Made by a program: the position numbers and the translations under genes. From the IMG/VR virus record IMGVR_UViG_3300044951_002330, positions 1 to 32,901 of that record: a DNA stretch of 32,901 nucleotides; one strand, 5' to 3'. The notes beneath the pieces are model-generated. The model had not been told where the DNA came from. It was given only the letters and a program-made list of their open reading frames with translations, and did no database searches. Positions 1 to 32,901 of the stretch are shown piece by piece. Within the stretch, counting starts at the first letter, position 1; each line of letters begins with the position of its first letter. Source of the DNA: a virus.

Positions 1-200
1 TTTAGTTCATCTCTAACTAATTTTCTTGCTGATGTGCCAAATCTATCAATGGCTATGCTCCCCTCAAGGGACATAAATGCAGCCAGTACTTCAATCTCTT
101 TTGGAGTGAGAGTAACAGGCAAGAACACATTGACTATAGCCAAGTGCTTCTCATAGTACTGCTTTGCTGGCAGGGTGAGCTGTTTCTTTAATGGTGTCAT
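1..200 (-). CDS. Partial leftward gene, HTH-like protein (N-terminal 66 aa)
   Basis: Reading the minus strand from an ATG at 200 down to base 1 gives an uninterrupted frame beginning MTPLKKQLTLPAKQYYEKHL, so the gene leaves the window on the left. AAGGA lies 2 nt upstream of the ATG. Residues ~31-65 contain LTPKEIEVLAAFMSLEG followed by DRFGTSARKLVRDEL, a spacing that resembles a small helix-turn-helix or winged-helix unit, with the second part as a possible recognition helix. It is divergent from the rightward block, so it is probably the first gene of the leftward (late) transcription unit, and a transcriptional regulator would fit. The family is not identified; the frame and partial status are clear, the DNA-binding role is inference. 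Confidence 0.7.
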   Translation of the reverse strand, partial: MTPLKKQLTLPAKQYYEKHLAIVNVFLPVTLTPKEIEVLAAFMSLEGSIAIDRFGTSARKLVRDEL

Positions 201-430: not shown

Positions 431-452
431 ACAGCCCCCACTGATTTTTAGG
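431..452 (+). promoter_or_regulatory. ACAGCCC-type element, copy 1
   Basis: First of four related ~21-nt blocks (others at 777, 1674, 2132) with the common pattern ACAGCCC, then ~4 nt containing CT, then a T/A-rich part ending TTAG. This copy is the most divergent, with CCCCC in place of CCCTT. It lies 48 nt before a possible GTG start and 66 nt before the ATG of the micro-ORF at 518. It may be a phage promoter or a conserved 5' leader element. Confidence 0.45.
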
Positions 453-517
453 GAAAGGCATCCCCCCACCCAAGTGATGTCAAAACTAAATTTTCAGCCG
501 TGAATATAATAAATAGA

Positions 518-622
518 ATGGTCTATGCCTTGAGGAATCCAAGGTTGGACATGGGATTGGTAGCAGTGTTGTACTGTACAACACTGTGGTTACTAATCAT
601 TCTTAGTGTTGTGTATCTATGA
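518..622 (+). CDS. Possible 34-aa membrane micro-protein
   Basis: ATG at 518 opens a 34-codon frame whose C-terminal ~22 residues form a hydrophobic stretch (GLVAVLYCTTLWLLIILSVV) long enough for one transmembrane helix. It follows copy 1 of the ACAGCCC element, as the other small early genes do. Against it, a 10-bp perfect palindrome (564-586) lies inside the frame, so the region may have been selected as a DNA or RNA structure. A GTG at 500 would extend the frame by six codons. Low confidence. Confidence 0.25.
   Translation: MVYALRNPRLDMGLVAVLYCTTLWLLIILSVVYL
564..586. repeat. Perfect inverted repeat (10-bp arms, 3-nt loop)
   Basis: CAGTGTTGTA (564-573) and TACAACACTG (577-586) are exact reverse complements around CTG. 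This is the first of a cluster of inverted repeats sharing the GTGTTGTA/TACAACAC core, placed in the divergent control region, so it is a candidate operator or part of an origin. Confidence 0.7.
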
Positions 623-634
623 TTGATACAACAC
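606..634. repeat. Imperfect inverted repeat with the same core
   Basis: GTGTTG plus TATC (606-617, with a 2-nt bulge) pairs with GATACAACAC (625-634). The ACAACAC half-site is shared with the 564-586 palindrome, which suggests a common binding factor instead of two unrelated hairpins. Confidence 0.55.
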
Positions 635-640
635 AATTTA

Positions 641-673
641 TATGATGTGTGTACTACATATACACACATCATA
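641..673. repeat. Long perfect inverted repeat (13-bp arms, 7-nt loop)
   Basis: TATGATGTGTGTA (641-653) and TACACACATCATA (661-673) are exact reverse complements around a 7-nt loop. No T-run follows, so it is not a standard intrinsic terminator. With the neighbouring palindromes and the smaller hairpins at 729-744 (ATAGCC/GGCTAT) and 757-769 (AGATA/TATCT) it makes the densest dyad cluster in the window, upstream of the first rightward gene. Confidence 0.7.
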
Positions 674-776
674 CTATAATACAGTCAACTAGTAGACTAT
701 AACATTACCTCTGATGAGACTAGACGAAATAGCCAATAGGCTATCAGGTATAAGTAAGATAAGCTATCTATAAGGG

Positions 777-798
777 ACAGCCCTTACTTGTTCTTAGG
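777..798 (+). promoter_or_regulatory. ACAGCCC-type element, copy 2
   Basis: ACAGCCCTTAC followed by TTGTTCTTAGG. It ends 35 nt before the ATG at 834. The same element precedes the paralogous gene at 1727 with nearly the same spacing (32 nt), so it probably drives or controls both. Confidence 0.5.
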
Positions 799-833
799 CA
801 ATATTGCCGCAAAATTCCATAAAACCTTATAAA

Positions 834-1079
834 ATGGAATCTATTAAATTTATAACTGTTGAGCAGTTTAAAACTCAAATTGGTACTAGTACAGTGAAAG
901 TGTTGAAAAATGAGAAAACTGAGAAGTTATTCTTATCAACAGACAATGGAGATTGTTACAAAGTGCAACAAGACATCAATCCTAAATTGGAGATGAAAAT
1001 GCTAATCAAAGATGGTAACATCAGTGATGCTTGTCTTGTGAATGTTAGTGGAGGTGCAACTGAGCAATTCAGTCTTTAA
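834..1079 (+). CDS. Small conserved phage protein, paralogue A (81 aa)
   Basis: The product of this gene is about 60% identical by eye to the 81-aa product of 1727-1972. Shared blocks are KFITVE near the N-terminus, KLFLSTDNGD in the middle (residues ~36-45) and DACLVNV-GGA-EQF-L at the C-terminus. ATG 834 is preferred over the upstream ATG at 804 because it gives exactly the length and N-terminus of the paralogue and the same distance from the upstream ACAGCCC element. There is no signal peptide, membrane segment or Cys cluster; the pattern suggests a small beta-rich soluble protein. It has its own element upstream and a terminator downstream, so it is a single-gene unit. Function unknown; an early host-takeover or DNA-binding role is possible but unsupported. 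Confidence 0.85.
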   Translation: MESIKFITVEQFKTQIGTSTVKVLKNEKTEKLFLSTDNGDCYKVQQDINPKLEMKMLIKDGNISDACLVNVSGGATEQFSL

Positions 1080-1088
1080 TTATTAATT

Positions 1089-1113
1089 AAGGGGAGTAGA
1101 AATATTCCCCTTT
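1089..1113 (+). terminator. Intrinsic terminator after the first 81-aa gene
   Basis: AAGGGGA (1089-1095) pairs with TCCCCTT (1106-1112) over a 10-nt loop, followed by only a short T-run, so termination may be leaky. It starts 10 nt after the stop codon. Confidence 0.65.
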
Positions 1114-1126
1114 AATAACAACTATT

Positions 1127-1504
1127 ATGGACACAATTGAAGCCCTTTACTTTGAAAATGAATCTCTTAGACAAGAAGTTATGAGATTGAATGAAATTAT
1201 TATATCTTATCAAAATAAAGATATAGCAATCAATACAAATTACAAACATTATGATAATGATTTTGAGAATGAGTATTATAATGATAATGATGATTATTAT
1301 TTTAATAACAGAAGTCCTCAAGAAATGTTTGAAGATTATGTAATGTTTATTGATGTATATTCCCCTGAAGCTGCAAATTATTTCACTGAGTGGTTTAGAT
1401 ATTCTGCAATGACAGATGAATATTGGATAGACCCTAAAGAGGAAGCCAATGAAGCTGAAGCTTTCAGAATAATTTGGAAGAATAGATTAGTAGAATTAAC
1501 TTAA
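1127..1504 (+). CDS. Acidic hypothetical protein (125 aa)
   Basis: The N-terminal ~30 residues (ALYFENESLRQEVMRLNEII) form a leucine-zipper-like coiled coil with heptad spacing. A low-complexity, strongly acidic D/N/Y-rich linker follows (residues ~40-60), then an aromatic- and acid-rich C-terminal part containing MFEDYVMFIDVYSPEAANYF. It has no Cys/His cluster, signal peptide or membrane helix. It is flanked by terminators on both sides. A small acidic protein with a coiled coil in an early phage region could be a DNA mimic or an inhibitor of a host factor, but this is speculation. Confidence 0.75.
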   Translation: MDTIEALYFENESLRQEVMRLNEIIISYQNKDIAINTNYKHYDNDFENEYYNDNDDYYFNNRSPQEMFEDYVMFIDVYSPEAANYFTEWFRYSAMTDEYWIDPKEEANEAEAFRIIWKNRLVELT

Positions 1505-1510
1505 TAACAA

Positions 1511-1538
1511 GGGAGCAACTTAGGTTGCTCTCTTTTTT
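1511..1538 (+). terminator. Intrinsic terminator
   Basis: GGGAGCAAC (1511-1519) pairs with GTTGCTCTC (1524-1532, one G-U) around TTAG, followed by six T. It lies 6 nt after the stop of the 125-aa gene. Confidence 0.85.
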
Positions 1539-1666
1539 AAAAGCCCTTTCTTATGGTTCACAGTTACCATTCTCTTTTAAAACCCTTTCATTATGGTTCA
1601 GCCCTAACTATAATATATGATAAGGTATGAGGAATAAGGAAAGCATCTCCTTATTATGGTTCACAC
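1535..1666 (+). repeat. Direct repeats with TTATGGTTCA core
   Basis: TTTTAAAA-CCCTTTC-TTATGGTTCA occurs at 1535-1560 and 1575-1600, with shorter versions at 1647-1666 (CTCCTTATTATGGTTCACAC) and, outside this span, at 2011-2030. Each carries an ATG; the reading frames opened are 25, 4, 12 and 4 codons long. The spacer also holds a degenerate ACAGCCC-like segment (CAGCCCTAACT, 1599-1609). These may be leader-peptide starts, decayed gene starts or protein-binding repeats. Confidence 0.55.
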
Positions 1667-1673
1667 CTTGGAA

Positions 1674-1694
1674 ACAGCCCTTACTAATTATTAG
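1674..1694 (+). promoter_or_regulatory. ACAGCCC-type element, copy 3
   Basis: ACAGCCCTTACTAATTATTA plus G. It ends 32 nt before the ATG at 1727, matching the spacing of copy 2 to the paralogous gene. It overlaps the 3' end of a 12-codon frame opened at 1657, whose stop codon is the TAG of the element. Confidence 0.5.
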
Positions 1695-1709
1695 TCACAT
1701 ATTCATTAA

Positions 1710-1724
1710 TTTAAAACCAAGAAA
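1710..1724 (+). repeat. Start-codon leader repeat TTTAAAACCAAGAAA
   Basis: The 15-nt leader lies 2 nt before the ATG at 1727. The same block, or a close form, precedes the starts at 2913, 3379, 3522 and 3672, with shortened forms before 5300. There is no Shine-Dalgarno sequence, so this probably acts as an A-rich translation enhancer. Confidence 0.65.
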
Positions 1725-1726
1725 TC

Positions 1727-1972
1727 ATGGCAGACGTGAAATTTATTACAGTAGAAGCTTTTAAAGCACAAGTGGGAACAAGTAGAATAAGCATATTGCT
1801 TAATGCTAAAACAGACAAATTGTTTTTGTCTACAGACAATGGGGACACATATAGAGTCCAAGGAGACATTGACAAAAACAAGGAAATGAGAATGTTAATT
1901 CCAGAAACAGGAATAGCAGATGCCTGTTTAGTTAATGTAGCAGGTGGTGCAAGTGAACAATTTGCACTGTAA
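1727..1972 (+). CDS. Small conserved phage protein, paralogue B (81 aa)
   Basis: Same length and fold pattern as the product of 834-1079; conserved blocks are KFITVEAFKAQVGTS, KLFLSTDNGD and DACLVNVAGGASEQFAL. Differences cluster at residues 20-30 and 48-60, suggesting divergence in one surface. The start is supported by the repeated leader directly upstream. The gene is a single unit bounded by the ACAGCCC element and a terminator at 1981. Keeping two copies in a compact phage genome suggests a dosage need or two related targets. Function unknown. Confidence 0.88.
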   Translation: MADVKFITVEAFKAQVGTSRISILLNAKTDKLFLSTDNGDTYRVQGDIDKNKEMRMLIPETGIADACLVNVAGGASEQFAL

Positions 1973-1980
1973 CATACAGA

Positions 1981-2010
1981 GAATGAGGGGTAAAACCCTC
2001 ATTTCTTTTT
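1981..2010 (+). terminator. Intrinsic terminator
   Basis: AATGAGGG (1982-1989) pairs with CCCTCATT (1996-2003), followed by TCTTTTT. It lies 9 nt after the stop of the second 81-aa gene. Confidence 0.8.
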
Positions 2011-2131
2011 ATCCCTTTATTATGGTTCACAACTAAAGATATACTTAAAGCTGTAAGGGGCTTATAAGTAGGAGTTATAGGGCTAGAGTTCAACACTTTA
2101 GCTCTATTAATTCACTTCTTACACTCAGGAC

Positions 2132-2152
2132 ACAGCCCTCACTAATTCTTAG
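2132..2152 (+). promoter_or_regulatory. ACAGCCC-type element, copy 4
   Basis: ACAGCCCTCACTAATTCTTA plus G. It ends 34 nt before an ATG at 2187 and 121 nt before the more protein-like start at 2274. It probably serves the small membrane-protein genes that follow. Confidence 0.5.
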
Positions 2153-2273
2153 CTGTATTGTCTATTTTAATAAGCTAACTGCTTGAATGTTAGTGTGTAA
2201 CAGAAGAGATACCCACTATTTTACCACTATTTTCACTTCACAAATAACAAACTATTCACAAATACATAGCCAA

Positions 2274-2429
2274 ATGTCAAACACTTTTACAATTACCCTA
2301 ATCATATTTCTAATTATAGTTCAACATTATTCCTATAAATACAAAAGAGAATATATTGGCAATACCATATCAACTATTCTTTTTATTTTTGCTTGTCTTA
2401 TCTTAACAGGTAAAATACAATTTCACTAA
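2274..2429 (+). CDS. Small membrane protein (51 aa)
   Basis: From ATG 2274 the product has two hydrophobic segments (residues ~4-18 and ~33-47) separated by a basic, Tyr/Lys-rich loop (HYSYKYKREYIG), which suggests a two-helix hairpin in the inner membrane. An in-frame ATG at 2187 would add 29 polar residues. That longer start keeps the 32-35 nt spacing to the upstream element, while 2274 gives a better membrane-protein N-terminus; the sequence does not decide. Function unknown; small membrane proteins in this position of phage genomes often modify the host envelope or exclude other phages. Confidence 0.5.
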   Translation: MSNTFTITLIIFLIIVQHYSYKYKREYIGNTISTILFIFACLILTGKIQFH

Positions 2430-3671: not shown

Positions 3672-3935
3672 ATGAAGAAAATTCTGTTTATTATCCTATT
3701 ATTGATAGGAGGAATGTCAATCCAAGCTCAAACAACCTATAAAAAAGGAGCAGATGGTAAATTAATATCAACATCAGTTGGTATAGTAAGTACTCCTAGT
3801 GTTAAAACTAGTGATGTTGTAACTATTAAAGATACAGATTATCCTGTCTTTAAAACAGCAAGAGGTAAATTCTACATAGTTAGAATATCAAAAAATACAG
3901 GTAAAGAATACAAACAATACATTAAAATAGAGTAA
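3672..3935 (+). CDS. Exported small protein with signal peptide (87 aa)
   Basis: A textbook Sec signal peptide is visible: MKK, then a hydrophobic core ILFIILLLIGGM, then SIQAQ with probable cleavage after SIQA or AQ near residue 19-20. The mature ~67 residues are polar and beta-prone (ISTSVGIVSTPS, DYPVFKTARGKFYIVRIS) and end EYKQYIKIE. No lipobox Cys. It would be delivered to the periplasm or secreted during infection. Together with the adjacent membrane proteins it points to envelope modification, perhaps superinfection exclusion or lysis control, though none is shown by homology. Only 2 nt separate it from the next gene. Confidence 0.75.
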   Translation: MKKILFIILLLIGGMSIQAQTTYKKGADGKLISTSVGIVSTPSVKTSDVVTIKDTDYPVFKTARGKFYIVRISKNTGKEYKQYIKIE

Positions 3936-18622: not shown

Positions 18623-19810
18623 ATGGATAAAATAGAAAAATATCTAACAGCAATAAATCGTAAAACAACAGAAGAAAAAATTCTTTTAGTTACAAATCTA
18701 GTTTTAAGAGATAGGTTAGCTTTTAGTGATATAATCACAATAAATATGTCTTCTATTATGGAACAATTACAATATGTTTTTCCTAATAGATGGGACATTC
18801 AGTTTGAAAGATGCTTTGCAATTAAAGATAAAATAGTATTAAAAGCTGAATTTGTAATTCATTTTCCTAAAATTGTAATCAGTAATTCAGAAGAAATGAA
18901 GCATACTATACACGATTTATACATTAAATTGCAAAGTATACAAGCTTACAATGGAGTAGGAATAACTTTTGATGATTTCAAAGGAAAAAGAATGACAGTA
19001 ACAGATGAAGAAGTGTTGTCTAAATATCAACATAGTCATCTACCCAGTAGACCTTACACTGAAATAAAAAAGACAAGAGAAGCAAGTAAATTTTCTAGTT
19101 ATGGACAAACAGGAGATTCAAATGCTGTTTTTACATATAGAAATTTCTGTAAAGGGTCTAGTGAAATTAATCAAATCTTATCAATGTTATCTAGCAGATA
19201 TGATTCCAACATCTTTAAGATGTTTCTATTACAATTGGACTTGTATGTACAATGGGAATCTATTGAGGGAAGACCTCATATCTATATGAAATATGTTTCA
19301 GGTAGGGCTGAAATAAATCATCCTTCTTCTTATAAACAACAAGAGTTTTATGATTATTTGCCTTTATGGGAAATGAATATCAATTTTAAAGTAGAAAATG
19401 GAGAAATTAAAGTTATAGATAACAATAAATTTGAAGACTTTCTAAAATATAAAGGAGATGTTTCTGGAGTATACCCTGTAGATATTAGGAATACATTATG
19501 TATCAAAGATGAAAAAGGAAATTATTACAGTAGAAGAAGTTTACCTACTGAATTTCCTGATGCTTTATTAGACCCAGTAGAAGAATTGAATACAATTAGT
19601 TGGTATTTCAAAGGAGAATTAATAGAATTTAAAGTAATATATCAATCAGAAGAAGAAAGAGCATTAAATGCAGAAAAACCTTTTTTTATTCACAAAGACT
19701 TAAAAGAATATGCAAAATCAAGAATTGAACAAACCATTAAAACCCAGAGATTTAGATGTTATATCTCTGAGCAATTGTCCAAAGCTAATAATCCCACAAG
19801 AAGTATCTAA
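18623..19810 (+). CDS. Possible E2-like conjugation enzyme (395 aa)
   Basis: Not recognised with certainty. Context and a central pattern suggest an E2/UBC-related protein as in bacterial Ubl operons: a sheet-like segment VLKAEFVIHFPKIVISNSEEM (~73-92), a helix, GKRMTVTDEE, then KYQHSHLPSRP (His137 and His139) and NFCKGSSEI with Cys176 after a ~35-residue stretch. A His-rich flap before a single Cys followed by Gly recalls the H(P)N...CL arrangement of E2 enzymes. QWESIEGRPHIYMKYV follows (~210-225), then a domain of unknown type. Other Cys residues are C64, C289 region and C385. The 3' end overlaps the JAB gene by 101 nt. E2 function is an inference from synteny and pattern. Confidence 0.5.
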   Translation: MDKIEKYLTAINRKTTEEKILLVTNLVLRDRLAFSDIITINMSSIMEQLQYVFPNRWDIQFERCFAIKDKIVLKAEFVIHFPKIVISNSEEMKHTIHDLYIKLQSIQAYNGVGITFDDFKGKRMTVTDEEVLSKYQHSHLPSRPYTEIKKTREASKFSSYGQTGDSNAVFTYRNFCKGSSEINQILSMLSSRYDSNIFKMFLLQLDLYVQWESIEGRPHIYMKYVSGRAEINHPSSYKQQEFYDYLPLWEMNINFKVENGEIKVIDNNKFEDFLKYKGDVSGVYPVDIRNTLCIKDEKGNYYSRRSLPTEFPDALLDPVEELNTISWYFKGELIEFKVIYQSEEERALNAEKPFFIHKDLKEYAKSRIEQTIKTQRFRCYISEQLSKANNPTRSI

Positions 19811-20921
19811 TAAGATAAAACTTCTTTGTGGTAAAATCAGTTTAGTAGAGTGGTCAGGAGTATTATTTTACTCTGTAAAAGGCAGTATTAAACAATTTGA
19901 CAAAGTTGAATTTACTATAGAAGATATTTATCCTATGAATAAAGGAACTAAAGCATATACAGAATATGATTTAGATGATGACCTTATTGACTATAGAATG
20001 AATAATCCTCAAAGTTTAGGGTGGAAGATTGGTATGGTACATAGTCACAATAGTATGAAATCTTACTTCTCAGGGACAGATATGTCTGAGTTGAATGATA
20101 ACTCAGAGTTTCATAATTATTATCTCTCATTGATTGTAAACAACTTTGAAGAAATGGTAGCTAAAGTTGCTTTCAGAGGAAATGTCAAAGGTTATGAATG
20201 TAAAGATGAAACAGGAAAAAATTGGAACTTAAACCTAAAGAATACAAAACAAATAATGTTCACTTTTGATTGTGATATTGTAGTAAAGGAAGAGTTACCT
20301 TTTGTTGAAAATTCTTTTTCTGATAGGCTTGAAGAGATTATACAAAAAGCAGAAGAGAAAGAAGAACTAGCTAGGCTTAAAAGTATAAAAAGTTATCCTA
20401 CCACACATACAAGTGCTTTTGGAAATGTTATTCCAGCTAAGAATCCATATGAAGCAGGACCAAATGGAGCTGATGCTTTTCTAGCAAATAGAAAATTTAT
20501 ATCAGATGATGATTGGTTTGATTCAAAACAATTAAAACTTGATGATTTTGATACACCTCCTATCACTAATAGAGATGTATCTAAAATGTCTCACGAAGAA
20601 AAATTAGCTGATTTTACAGCTTTTATCTTGAGATTAGGTCACGAGTCTCCTTTAATTTCCAACACTCCTGAATCAGCTTTAGAAGATTTAGATGCAGGCA
20701 AAGTAAATACATTTGAGTTTACTGCAAAGTTTCTTAATATGTACCCAGCTTTATTTGAACAATATTGGGATGGATTTGGACAAATTGATACAGACTTCTT
20801 TAGATTAGTTACAGAAGATGTAATGGAAATACTAGAAGAATCTTTTGATACTCATGAAGTAATAGAACATCTTCTTAGTGGACTGAATATAATGTTGAAC
20901 AGATTAATAGCATTATCATAA
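19710..20921 (+). CDS. JAB/JAMM metallo-isopeptidase (403 aa)
   Basis: The first ~170 residues form a JAB/MPN domain with a complete JAMM zinc motif: E47 in SLVEWSGVLFY, H111 and H113 in MVHSHNSMKSYF, S121 and D124 in SGTDMSEL. Such proteins cleave ubiquitin-like proteins from conjugates or mature their C-termini. Residues ~200-400 are an acidic helical extension containing EEIIQKAEEKEELARLKS, NPYEAGPNGADAFL and a negatively charged C-terminal helical domain, probably for substrate choice. ATG 19710 overlaps the upstream gene by 101 nt; the JAB domain begins at ~residue 26, and no in-frame ATG closer to it exists. The stop overlaps the E1 gene's ATG (TAATG). Confidence 0.88.
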   Translation: MQNQELNKPLKPRDLDVISLSNCPKLIIPQEVSNKIKLLCGKISLVEWSGVLFYSVKGSIKQFDKVEFTIEDIYPMNKGTKAYTEYDLDDDLIDYRMNNPQSLGWKIGMVHSHNSMKSYFSGTDMSELNDNSEFHNYYLSLIVNNFEEMVAKVAFRGNVKGYECKDETGKNWNLNLKNTKQIMFTFDCDIVVKEELPFVENSFSDRLEEIIQKAEEKEELARLKSIKSYPTTHTSAFGNVIPAKNPYEAGPNGADAFLANRKFISDDDWFDSKQLKLDDFDTPPITNRDVSKMSHEEKLADFTAFILRLGHESPLISNTPESALEDLDAGKVNTFEFTAKFLNMYPALFEQYWDGFGQIDTDFFRLVTEDVMEILEESFDTHEVIEHLLSGLNIMLNRLIALS

Positions 20922-21595
20922 TGGATGCAATACAAATAAGAGGAAGATTCAAGGATGCACCTTGGTTTCCTAAAGAACCCACCACCTGTATAATAGGTGG
21001 TGCAGGTGGAATTGGCAGTTGGCTATCATTTTTGTTAGCCAGAACAGGATATTTTCCTTTAGTTTATGACTTTGACACAGTTGAAGTTCATAATATGGGA
21101 GGTCAATTATTCAGTAAAAAACATATAGGAATGGATAAAGTGGAAGCTGTGAGAGAAATGATATTAGAATTTTCTGATATGGATGTTATGGTTTTTAATG
21201 AAAAGTATGATGAAAATGGGATGACTTCTCCTTATATGTTTTCTGCTTTTGATAATATGGAAGCCAGAAAAGTAATGTTTAAAAGATGGAGAGAAGATAA
21301 TACAGAAAATCCTTTTGCTATATTTATTGATGGAAGATTGCTTATGGAGCAGATGCAGATTTTTTGTGTTACCAATGAAACTGCTGATGAATATGAAAGA
21401 GACCATTTATTTGATGACTCTGTAGTAATGGCAGAAAACTGTACACTAAAACAAACTTCACATTCAGCCTCTATGATAGCAAGTTTAATGATTGGTTTCT
21501 TTACTAATCATATGACCAATGTCTTAGCAGTAACAAAAGTAAGAGATGTGCCATTTATGTATGAATATTTCATACCATTAAATATGGTATCATAA
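20921..21595 (+). CDS. E1/ThiF-like adenylating enzyme (224 aa)
   Basis: ThiF-family Rossmann enzyme expected to adenylate the C-terminus of a Ubl. Visible: nucleotide loop IIGGAGGIGSWLSFLLARTG (residues 25-43, GxGGxGS-like), D50 and D52 in YDFDTVEVHN, N58, Q62, K73 in IGMDKVEA, and SAFDNMEARK with D111 and R116. The Arg normally found in NxxRQ is Gly here (NMGGQ). A candidate thioester Cys is C174 in ENCTLKQTSHSAS; C149 is another. Compact (224 aa), without the extra domains of eukaryotic E1. Coupled to genes on both sides by overlapping TAATG junctions. Confidence 0.88.
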   Translation: MDAIQIRGRFKDAPWFPKEPTTCIIGGAGGIGSWLSFLLARTGYFPLVYDFDTVEVHNMGGQLFSKKHIGMDKVEAVREMILEFSDMDVMVFNEKYDENGMTSPYMFSAFDNMEARKVMFKRWREDNTENPFAIFIDGRLLMEQMQIFCVTNETADEYERDHLFDDSVVMAENCTLKQTSHSASMIASLMIGFFTNHMTNVLAVTKVRDVPFMYEYFIPLNMVS

Positions 21596-29912: not shown

Positions 29913-30074
29913 ATGAGAGCAAATTTAGGAGAAATCTTTATAATAAAGATTATCAATGGTTTACCAACCTGCAGAGACAAAGTAGTAAAAATAAGTAATA
30001 TCCTTTTTACACTACTTAAAAGTAAAGGAAAGAATGCAACAATTGCTGTGTTAGAACATAGTGTACAATTTTAA
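29913..30074 (+). CDS. Small hypothetical protein (53 aa)
   Basis: ATG 29913, with an A-rich leader (AATAAGTAAAAGATT), opens a 53-codon frame: EIFIIKIINGLPTCRDKVVK, then ISNILFTLLKSKGKNATIAV. It is the last rightward ORF and lies between the block terminator and the terminator of the converging leftward gene, so it would need read-through or its own promoter. It reads like a small alpha/beta domain; no family recognised. Confidence 0.5.
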   Translation: MRANLGEIFIIKIINGLPTCRDKVVKISNILFTLLKSKGKNATIAVLEHSVQF

Positions 30075-30078
30075 AAAA

Positions 30079-30112
30079 ATAAGCCAAATCTCTTAATTGA
30101 GGTTTGGCTTAT
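30079..30112 (-). terminator. Terminator of the leftward large gene
   Basis: ATAAGCCAAATCTC (30079-30092) pairs with GAGGTTTGGCTTAT (30099-30112), one G-U pair, 6-nt loop. Seven A at 30073-30079 give a T-run on the minus strand directly after the stem, so it works for the leftward transcript. On the plus strand it could act as a weaker back-stop. Confidence 0.85.
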
Positions 30113-30133
30113 CAAAAAATTTAGGCTACCATT

Positions 30134-32901
30134 TTATTGTTTCTTTTGATTTTCATCATAAGAAAATCTAGCTGGGTAAGGGTGCTCAACTTCTATCCCC
30201 TGATTAACTTGTTTTTCTATTATATCTAAAGTAAGTTTTTGCTCTTCTGCAGATAAATTATCATAATTATAATCTTCTTTTAGATTTTCAATTTGTTCAA
30301 GTTTGTATTCTGTTCTTTGTCCTTTAATTTCACTTCTTTCTGTTTTATAATCTGTATCAAACATTGTATCTATGTACTCTGTACTATTAAAATCTCTTTG
30401 AGCAGATTTTTCAAAGCCTAATTGTTTAACAAAAGAAGGTAAAAATAAATCCTTTCCTAAATTACCTGCTTTGCTTTGACCTGCAGTTACACCTGATTTA
30501 ATAGTATCAGTACCATTAAATATACCAGCTAGAGTTGCTGGTAATTTAACAATATTTGTAAAAGTCTTTATTGCAATATTAGAATTATAAGTATCAACAG
30601 TAAAAGAAATAGGATTTTGAAAAGATTCAAGTTCATTTATCATTCCTGATATTTGATTTTCAAGAATAAAATACATTGTTTTTTCTTTTTCAGTTCTAGC
30701 ATTATTAGTATAATATGGATTAGGTTGTCCATTTCCAAATGTTTTAGGTTCATCATCATCTCCTCCACCAAGTGCAGATTTCCACAATATTTTAAATAAA
30801 ACAAGAGTAAGTAAAATAGAAATTTCTCCCACAATACTTTGTAAATTTTGTTCATCTTCCTTACTAACAGCAATACTACTTAAATCAGCACTACCAATTC
30901 GTTGTTTTCCTGAAAAACCATTTACAGGTAAAGCTATCATTTTTTGTACAATAGCTCTAGCAAAAATTGACATTTCTTTTACTGCAAGTAAGTCAGAGAA
31001 TAATCCACCTGTTTCTCTATCCATCTTTTTGGCTATAAATCTACTAACTCCTATAGCAGCAGCCCCTGCAATAAGTGTACCCACAGGTCCTGCAGCAAGA
31101 AAACCTAATGTACCTGCTGTTACAAGAGCAGTACTAGTTCTATGAGAAGTGTATATACCATTTATTCCTTTTTTACCTAGTATTAAATTGTCTTGTTTAT
31201 AGGCAATTCTAGCCCAAACATAATTTGGCAACCAACTTTTAAATAACATTACTGTTTTACCAACTGCATATTTTTTTATTAAAGTAACTCCAGATTTAGA
31301 GTAATCCCCATTAGCAATTGAGATAACTTCACTCATATAAAGTTTAATAGCTCCTGCTTCTTTACTAGAAACATTCTCCCAAGTAGAAAGGTTATCTTTA
31401 GTGTGTTCATTTTCTAAATCTGCAAATTCAGGTTTTAGTTTAAGTTTACCATCTTTAATTTCATAAGCAGGCAACCCTGTCCCATCAAAAATAGGATATT
31501 CTATTCCATTAACATCTTTAATAGTTTTGTCCCCCAACATCGCCAAAATTTGTGGAACTTGATTATTCCACTCTACATATTCAGTGGCATAATAAGGAGA
31601 AATAACTTGTCTTACACCTGAAGAAACTCCAGAACTCCTTCTTGCTCTGTCCATTTCATTAGTAGCATCTTGAATAATATTAAGTAAATTGACAAGTAAT
31701 TTTACTTTTTTCACTTCTTCTTTATAAGAACTATTACCAGGAAGTTTAGAGAGTCCTCTGTAAAAAACAAAACCATTAGCCTTATAAAAATTTTCTTCAC
31801 TATAATATCTTCCTGCATGAACCATTCCTTGTGTAAATCCTTGAAATCTGTTTGTAATAGTACTTTTCAAAGAGTATGCAAGACCTTTAAAGATTGCAAA
31901 AGAATTAATTATTGCATTATATACATTGGTAAGAGTAATATTTTTACCAATGATTTCGATTTCTGCATGAATTTCTTCCTTTTCTGCCTCAGTTAAATTA
32001 GCATTTTGTAATTTATAATTTAACTCTTTAATTAAATCTTTCTCATAGTCAGTATAAGTTACAGTTACAAATCCTGCAGTGCTTACATCAGAAAGACCTT
32101 TGATATTTTTATTATACCAATTGTCCATTCTTATTTTAGCATTAACCCTATCACTACCAATTTCTTTTTTCTCTTTATTGCTTCTCATTTTATTAATAGC
32201 CCAATTTTTAAAAGACCTATTAGTACCTTCTCTTTTTATTTCATCATAAAATTCTTTTACAATTTCTAAAGTAGGTTGAGAATCTCTTTGAGCCTTGTAT
32301 TCAGCAGTCATTTCAAGATAAGCTCTTACAAGAACTGGAAGATTAGAAGTTTGTGTTTTGGCAACTTCTCCTTCAGCAAACATTTTAATTAAATCCTTAA
32401 CATAAATGTTTTTATTATTAGGATTAGGAAAAGGGATAATAGCTTTTAACCCTTGTGCAGTATCAGGACTTCCAAGTTCTTTTGCCAAGACTTTGTAAAG
32501 TTCTGCTTCATTAGATAAAGGCACATCTAAGTTAACAACATCTTCCCCTTTAAATCCTGTTTCTCTTTGTACTTTAAGTATAGTTAATCTAATGACTTTT
32601 TCTACTTCACTCTCAGTAGACTTAAATTGACTCTTATTTATTTCATCAAAATCATTTGAATCTTTATCTACTCTCGCTGACTCAAACTGAGATTTTAATC
32701 CTTGTTTAAGCCAACTACTTAATTGTACTCTTTTATTAACTCTTGATGCTCCATCAGGGTTTAATAAAATATCAAGAAAACTTTTTTGCATAGATAAAAT
32801 AGACCCATGTACTAATTGCTTTTCTGCATCAGCTAAGGTCATATTAATATATGATAAAGACTCTTCTAAAGACTCCCAAAATTCATATAAATCAGAATCT
32901 T
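30134..32901 (-). CDS. C-terminal part of a very large leftward protein, probably virion-associated (>=922 aa)
   Basis: The frame ends at 30134 and stays open past the Met at 32842 to the right edge (upstream codons read DSDLYEFWESLEESLSYIN), so the true start is outside the window. Mostly helical and Lys/Glu-rich, with an apparent domain around residues 300-560 from that Met (TNRFQGFTQGMVHAGRYYSE; EMDRARRSSGV; KLYMSEVISIANGDYSKSG). Two hydrophobic segments follow (ALVTAGTLGFLAAGPVGTLI and ISILLTLVLFKILWK), which may insert into a membrane. Charged, disordered C-terminus. Very large proteins in this position of crAss-like genomes are packaged in the capsid or tail and ejected, some acting as RNA polymerase; no catalytic motif is visible in this part. 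Assignment by context. Confidence 0.75.
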   Translation of the reverse strand, partial: DSDLYEFWESLEESLSYINMTLADAEKQLVHGSILSMQKSFLDILLNPDGASRVNKRVQLSSWLKQGLKSQFESARVDKDSNDFDEINKSQFKSTESEVEKVIRLTILKVQRETGFKGEDVVNLDVPLSNEAELYKVLAKELGSPDTAQGLKAIIPFPNPNNKNIYVKDLIKMFAEGEVAKTQTSNLPVLVRAYLEMTAEYKAQRDSQPTLEIVKEFYDEIKREGTNRSFKNWAINKMRSNKEKKEIGSDRVNAKIRMDNWYNKNIKGLSDVSTAGFVTVTYTDYEKDLIKELNYKLQNANLTEAEKEEIHAEIEIIGKNITLTNVYNAIINSFAIFKGLAYSLKSTITNRFQGFTQGMVHAGRYYSEENFYKANGFVFYRGLSKLPGNSSYKEEVKKVKLLVNLLNIIQDATNEMDRARRSSGVSSGVRQVISPYYATEYVEWNNQVPQILAMLGDKTIKDVNGIEYPIFDGTGLPAYEIKDGKLKLKPEFADLENEHTKDNLSTWENVSSKEAGAIKLYMSEVISIANGDYSKSGVTLIKKYAVGKTVMLFKSWLPNYVWARIAYKQDNLILGKKGINGIYTSHRTSTALVTAGTLGFLAAGPVGTLIAGAAAIGVSRFIAKKMDRETGGLFSDLLAVKEMSIFARAIVQKMIALPVNGFSGKQRIGSADLSSIAVSKEDEQNLQSIVGEISILLTLVLFKILWKSALGGGDDDEPKTFGNGQPNPYYTNNARTEKEKTMYFILENQISGMINELESFQNPISFTVDTYNSNIAIKTFTNIVKLPATLAGIFNGTDTIKSGVTAGQSKAGNLGKDLFLPSFVKQLGFEKSAQRDFNSTEYIDTMFDTDYKTERSEIKGQRTEYKLEQIENLKEDYNYDNLSAEEQKLTLDIIEKQVNQGIEVEHPYPARFSYDENQKKQ

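Follow-up and report, generated by a model that had tools for sequence, protein, structure and literature searches.

The window analysed here, the 32,901 nucleotides (nt) of IMG/VR virus record IMGVR_UViG_3300044951_002330, from a phage known from metagenomic contigs alone, contains four copies of a 21-nt element that very probably represents, to judge from sequence comparisons, the early promoter class of a clade of environmental crAss-like phages. This conclusion was drawn because copies had a fixed orientation in 21 of 21 genomes or fragments, clustered where the early arm diverges from the other arm, preceded protein genes as well as a transfer RNA (tRNA) gene and lacked host promoter boxes. 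The comparative results thus bore out the initial annotation, made by a model from the window alone, which had proposed a phage-specific promoter class. The giant virion-packaged RNA polymerase (vRNAP) of the phi14:2 gp66 type is the likely reader of the element, with a probability of roughly 0.7. The complete proposal, rated somewhat better than even, is that of a compact directional promoter (CCC-N-CAC-TTATTNTT-RG) which would serve a double-psi-beta-barrel vRNAP resembling RNA interference (RNAi) polymerases, would coevolve with that polymerase across environmental crAss-like phages and would yield, in the present phage, a leader cut by a hammerhead ribozyme.

Copies of the element in the window

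As previously annotated, the heptamer ACAGCCC occurred exactly at 431, 777, 1674 and 2132 on the plus strand and nowhere else in the window. Each occurrence headed one of the following copies.

431-451, plus strand: element copy 1, putative first early promoter, ACAGCCCCCACTGATTTTTAG, then GGGAAAGGCATCCCCCC, a succession also seen at the first copy in relatives
777-797, plus strand: element copy 2, ACAGCCCTTACTTGTTCTTAG
1674-1694, plus strand: element copy 3, ACAGCCCTTACTAATTATTAG
2132-2152, plus strand: element copy 4, ACAGCCCTCACTAATTCTTAG

The heptamer alone was mildly unusual (four found against 1.1 expected, with at least four in 5 of 100 shuffles). The extended unit shared by the four copies, ACAGCCC-YY-ACT-NRTT-N-TTAG, with 16 of 21 positions invariant, was decisive since no mismatches were noted at the four copies when ACAGCCCYYACTNRTTNTTAG was scored across the window while the next best sites had five, a level also obtained with first-order Markov sequence and hence expected by chance. 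The same 21-nt element was the top-ranked word in a de novo search of intergenic words, and the flanks of the four copies were dissimilar beyond it. ACAGCCC was absent from two contigs that were 100% identical to the window where compared, neither of which carries the early region.

Gaps of 36, 32 and 34 nt separated copies 2, 3 and 4 from the ATG codons at 834, 1727 and 2187, respectively, close to but not exactly the 32-35 nt first reported, and a gap of 48 nt separated copy 1 from an open reading frame (ORF) of 40 amino acids (aa) with a GTG start (500-622). The accompanying statement that each copy follows a terminator or opens a unit was broadly correct, as the copies at 1674 and 2132 follow terminator-like hairpins and the copy at 431 opens the early arm, but failed at 777, where a hammerhead ribozyme rather than a terminator precedes the element. 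Within this genome, the element was confined to the early region. Such confinement had been listed as an argument against a promoter; it is no refutation because early promoters are expected only in that region.

The element in related phages

In loci found via the 81-aa early protein encoded behind copies 2 and 3, the gene was preceded at the corresponding position by a similar sequence (e.g., CAAAACCCTCACTTATTTATAGC in Fpv3), and 25 sites upstream of homologous early genes were used to build a 22-position matrix. In related contigs, ACAGCCC proved to be a local version of a more general element, approximately CC-N7-AAAA-CCC-T-CAC-TTATT-TTT-AG, with a genome-weighted consensus of CC (-9/-8), about seven loose bases, AAAA, CCC, Y, CAC, T, W, ATT, W, TT, R and G. 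A total of 76 copies was identified in 21 crAss-like genomes or fragments, with CCC kept in every copy and CAC in 60. The element is non-palindromic and directional, and all copies within each of the 21 were on a single strand, that of the early genes. Most copies were intergenic and located where the two genome arms diverge. The clusters occupy corresponding places, as indicated by the presence beside them in eleven genomes of the same conserved divergent gene (44-74% identity), which starts within 200-1 on the minus strand of the window. In phages that share the element, early proteins were only 33-50% identical. Upstream of the first copy of a cluster there were often an A/T tract and GTGTG..CC, and a C-rich tract came some 15-25 nt downstream, as in the window (GGCATCCCCCC), G037 (AAGGCCCCCC), G005 (AAGTCCCCC) and phi14:2 (AGTATCCCC).

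The clustering was also evident in a blind test set of five crAss-like genomes that were found via DNA polymerase and contributed no training sites. Thus, all matches scoring at least 14.5 in G004, G005, G007 and G008 (4, 3, 2 and 4 matches, respectively, in genomes of about 100 kb) were confined in each genome to one strand of a single stretch shorter than 1 kb. In G009, the two matches were both on the minus strand, one near each contig end, at distances of 620 bases and 0.7 kb. When the matrix columns were permuted (1000 matrices), three or more matches within 1 kb were never obtained in any of these five genomes. In a scan of 50 polymerase-bearing contigs with a fixed pattern and one mismatch allowed, 28 matches were obtained with the true pattern, always on one strand per contig, and none with the reversed pattern; the fragments around pattern matches held 2-6 copies each, save G041, which had none above threshold. 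An exact window-type 21-mer was found in one viral contig only (L012), where it formed half of a GGGGGC-AACA-GCCCCC hairpin, and was taken as a chance match in a contig without the polymerase. The early arm opened with paired copies, exactly 26 bp apart, in two different genomes, G004 (52552 and 52578) and G008 (50973 and 50999).

Promoter function compared with other explanations

The element is a recurrent directional motif upstream of early units and is conserved in relatives, and the units behind it are unrelated. Some encode phrog_15744 proteins and others membrane micro-peptides, while in G018 one copy ends about 60 nt before a tRNA gene. The foremost competing explanation, although improbable, is that the element is an early promoter read by host RNA polymerase with a normal sigma factor or a phage-encoded factor. 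In line with this explanation, TAnnTTTG, the Bacteroidetes -7 box, occurred inside the T-rich part of 6 of the 76 copies. Moreover, host RNA polymerase is thought to perform late transcription in crAss-like phages (PMC10136315). However, TAnnTTTG was absent from the remaining 70 copies, TTG in the -33 region was rarer than in shuffled upstream sequence (6 versus 14), and the combination expected of Bacteroidetes sigma-ABfr promoters (TAnnTTTG at -7 with TTTG or TTG at -33) was not seen in any copy. Nor are the invariant CCC and the CAC block known features of host promoters. A scan of the region for sigma-70 promoters revealed no excess over shuffles.

A role as an operator or other protein-binding site, for a regulator or in ejection, packaging or replication rather than initiation, appears less probable still. 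Clustered repeats at the arm junction and the close spacing of the pairs in G004 and G008 could be expected of operators or iterons, but neither needs a fixed direction, which argues against an operator-like site given the non-palindromic sequence and single orientation of the element, and single copies were noted ahead of separate units as far as 6 kb from the cluster (G022, 14395).

There is little to favor an RNA element in the 5' leader, whether a translation signal, a structured leader or a leader peptide. In its favor, 27 of 74 copies were followed after 18-58 nt by an ATG-initiated ORF, and copy 3 could close a short reading frame (ATGGTTCACACC...TAG), whereas no common RNA fold was found around the copies and stems downstream of the element, while striking by eye in several genomes, were overall no longer than in shuffles (mean longest stem 4.86 versus 4.93). 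The copy that precedes a tRNA gene indicates that the element is not a translation signal. A shared leader peptide (in-frame T-A-L-T-N/D-S/Y/F-stop) was ruled out, as copy 2 is immediately preceded by a stop in the same frame (TAAGGGACAGCC). A hairpin of the kind found in N4 promoters, TAAGGG-ACAG-CCCTTA, was noted only at copy 2. Finally, the paralogous genes behind copies 2 and 3 might suggest that the copies are functionless by-products of tandem duplication of early units, a proposal that hardly merits consideration in view of the unrelated ORFs behind copies 1 and 4 and the unlike flanks, and that is already contradicted by the distant genomes in which the element is kept despite the divergence of early proteins.

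Identity of the phage and of the polymerase

The window corresponds to a crAss-type replication arm, with genes for a Dda-like helicase, a family A DNA polymerase, SNF2-type and DnaB-like helicases, a primase, an exonuclease and GroEL as well as a JAB-like gene beside ThiF. Two divergent arms, the replication module and crAss-type gene pairs, as found here, are those of a crAss-like phage. No TerL, portal or capsid gene was detected in either the window or the overlapping contig, G002, which is 100% identical to window positions 30000-32901 and extends 12 kb beyond. Among named phages, the closest are those of Flavobacterium psychrophilum known as Fpv, which have been placed with crAss-like phages (PMC7886860; PMC10136315). 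Kinship to the phi38:1 group, hinted at by the DNA polymerase, was rejected, as that group is without the giant polymerase.

The JAB-like gene and the ThiF/E1-like gene that directly follows it (19710-21595, plus strand) form the same pair as crAss001 gp77-gp76, and ThiF is also present in Fpv1. The pair is possibly a system for ubiquitin-like conjugation or removal kept across crAss-like phages.

The initial annotation had tentatively linked the element to a crAss-like phage with a virion-packaged polymerase, and a homologue of phi14:2 gp66 vRNAP is indeed encoded on G002 (a 3250-aa protein, L018 4866-14618, minus strand). By blastp, this protein matched phi14:2 gp66 (E 3e-23) and crAss001 gp50 (E 2e-17), with GIDFDIDKE aligned over catalytic GSDFDIDK and the DFDID (DxDxD) motif conserved. 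The full 3250-aa protein gave no match to PDB by phmmer, although the core did so as a family profile, which was built without phi14:2 and matched the solved phi14:2 polymerase (PDB 6vr4) at 1e-26.

That this polymerase reads the element is suggested by the distribution of both. The vRNAP gene was found in Fpv1 and in the long contigs with a cluster that were examined (G004, G005, G007, G008, G009, G013 and G018); shorter contigs that have a cluster but no such gene are possibly fragments. The element faded as the polymerase diverged, with at least two copies in 8 of 15 contigs whose polymerase was 40% or more identical to that of the present phage as opposed to 0 of 35 below this level (Fisher p 1e-5). 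Early transcription of phi14:2 is vRNAP-driven and rifampicin-resistant, according to a review (PMC10136315).

Several findings weigh against this assignment. The association of element and polymerase is also explained by shared ancestry and cannot alone name the polymerase, and for this reason the probability given to vRNAP was kept at about 0.7. The polymerase gene was located on the overlapping contig rather than in the window. Approximately two thirds of all copies were without a recognised ATG-initiated ORF (at least 40 aa) within 60 nt, which implies that some copies would drive non-coding or micro-ORF RNAs. Instead of occurring in all phages with this polymerase, the element was seen only in the clade near the present phage and, weakly, in phi14:2. 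No cluster was found in gut Crassvirales (crAss001, crAss002, DAC15, a Carjivirus and four cr genomes), the polymerases of which are homologous but more distant, and a de novo motif search of other crAss-like genomes, dominated by tRNA T-loops, revealed no comparable repeated element in gut Crassvirales. The latter phages may use a diverged signal.

Proposed mechanism and the hammerhead ribozyme

If vRNAP is the reader, the polymerase would bind the double-stranded element after injection, recognizing the invariant CCC, then CAC and the T/A-rich TTATTNTT, and would open the T-rich part such that RNA starts at or just after the closing purine pair (A/G-G), which would place a leader of about 20-50 nt before the first start codon. 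Of the short early units that the four starts in the window would drive, two encode the paralogous 81-aa proteins, one a membrane micro-peptide and one a further small peptide. The following feature lies between the units of copies 1 and 2.

682-750, plus strand: RAGATH-1 hammerhead ribozyme (RF03152), between copies 1 and 2, identified with the Rfam covariance model

This match scored 63.9 bits against a gathering score of 56.3 (E 1.7e-9) and contained the CUGAUGA and GAAA core. The predicted cut, in transcripts from copy 1, is after AUC near 745, just ahead of copy 2. Cleavage of RNA that reads through from copy 1 would leave a defined 3' end for the first unit and a clean 5' end for the second; the simplest role of the ribozyme is probably to keep these two transcripts apart. 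The 370-nt stretch spanning copies 1 and 2 (431-800) was predicted to fold far better than shuffles (z -4.4), and three long hairpins were noted within this strongly structured stretch at about 555-672. RAGATH-1 was not found in any other related early region scanned.

Genes and other features around the copies

The remaining features of the early region are as follows.

1-200, minus strand: start of the conserved divergent gene, a synteny landmark that adjoins the element cluster in 11 related genomes
500-622, plus strand: putative membrane peptide (40 aa, GTG start) after copy 1, hydrophobic by inspection
834-1079, plus strand: early gene (81 aa, phrog_15744 family) behind copy 2, a paralogue of 1727-1972
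1127-1504, plus strand: second gene of the copy-2 unit (125 aa), with no PHROGs family match and none above the Pfam cut-off
1513-1530, plus strand: terminator-like palindrome followed on the plus strand by TCTTTTTT, between the copy-2 and copy-3 units; the scan listed the stem on the minus strand
1727-1972, plus strand: early gene (81 aa, phrog_15744 family) behind copy 3
1981-2004, plus strand: intrinsic-terminator-like hairpin with the tail CTTTTT, which ends the copy-3 unit
2187-2429, plus strand: ORF behind copy 4

Sequence downstream of copy 1 had been considered non-coding, a view overturned by the GTG-initiated ORF at 500 and its counterparts in G004, G005, G007 and G008, where small hydrophobic ORFs start at +46 to +48 after the first copy. 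For the gene behind copy 4, the true start codon may be at 2277 rather than 2187, which would give a 50-aa hydrophobic peptide. Close relatives of the 81-aa protein were not found among viral contigs in a single-sequence search, and bacterial genome contigs gave no match when searched with the early-gene alignment.

Two further repeats were noted. The sequence TTATGGTTCA occurred four times on the plus strand (1551, 1591, 1654 and 2020; chance expectation 0.12), each time in intergenic sequence before copies 3 and 4, and could represent either points where very short reading frames begin or a second repeat with a regulatory role. The leader TTAAAACCAAGAAA, from a de novo word search, preceded many start codons between 1506 and 3660 (1710, 2898, 3362, 3506 and 3655) and is probably a translation leader in place of Shine-Dalgarno. 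Genes for transfer-messenger RNA (tmRNA) were noted in crAss-like early regions (L049, 44382-44796, minus; L035, 15880-16299, plus; L079, 3541-3907, minus; L072, 761-1285, minus). In Fpv1, the element copy at 86124 (minus) opens a 2.3-kb stretch that lacks annotated genes and has tmRNA inside; further Fpv1 copies are at 88514, 256 and 373, likewise on the minus strand.

Comparison with known systems

The crAss-like phages rank with the most abundant known phages and have a giant virion polymerase whose closest structural counterparts are the eukaryotic polymerases of RNA interference. The occurrence of the element, a sequence of 22 nt with invariant positions, in cultured F. psychrophilum phages Fpv1, Fpv3 and Fpv4 and possibly in phi14:2, the enzyme of which has a crystal structure, makes promoter recognition testable. 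The element may also serve as a marker for locating the early arm in metagenomic crAss-like genomes.

The closest comparison is with phi14:2, where the homologous giant polymerase (gp66, PDB 6vr4) has the same DxDxD centre and the early block shares a gene with the window (window 3672-3935 versus phi14:2 9-266, 49% identity). In phi14:2, the best matrix match (98006, 16.7 bits) is an isolated one that precedes the first early-block gene (98111) by 105 nt; the argument is from its position rather than its score because about 0.65 matches per 100 kb are expected by chance at 16 bits. Phi14:2 thus differs from the present phage in having one weaker copy instead of a cluster. A full-text literature search revealed no published promoter sequence for the phi14:2 polymerase, but the primary paper (Drobysheva et al. 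2021) was outside this search and an earlier report of the motif is therefore possible.

The resemblance to Bacteroidetes housekeeping promoters (-33 TTTG, -7 TAnnTTTG) is limited to the T-rich 3' half of the element, which in a few copies is similar to the -7 box. In coliphage N4, as proposed here, a virion-packaged polymerase reads a small number of short early promoters close to where the early region begins. The N4 promoters are DNA hairpins and the N4 enzyme is T7-like; in contrast, the element described here has no conserved hairpin and the enzyme is of the double-psi-beta-barrel, RNAi-polymerase-like kind. Jumbo phages phiKZ and AR9 likewise have a phage-specific motif upstream of early genes that acts independently of host sigma factors. 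Their early motifs are AT-rich and their virion RNA polymerases multisubunit, whereas the present element has a CCC/CAC block and its proposed polymerase is a single giant chain.

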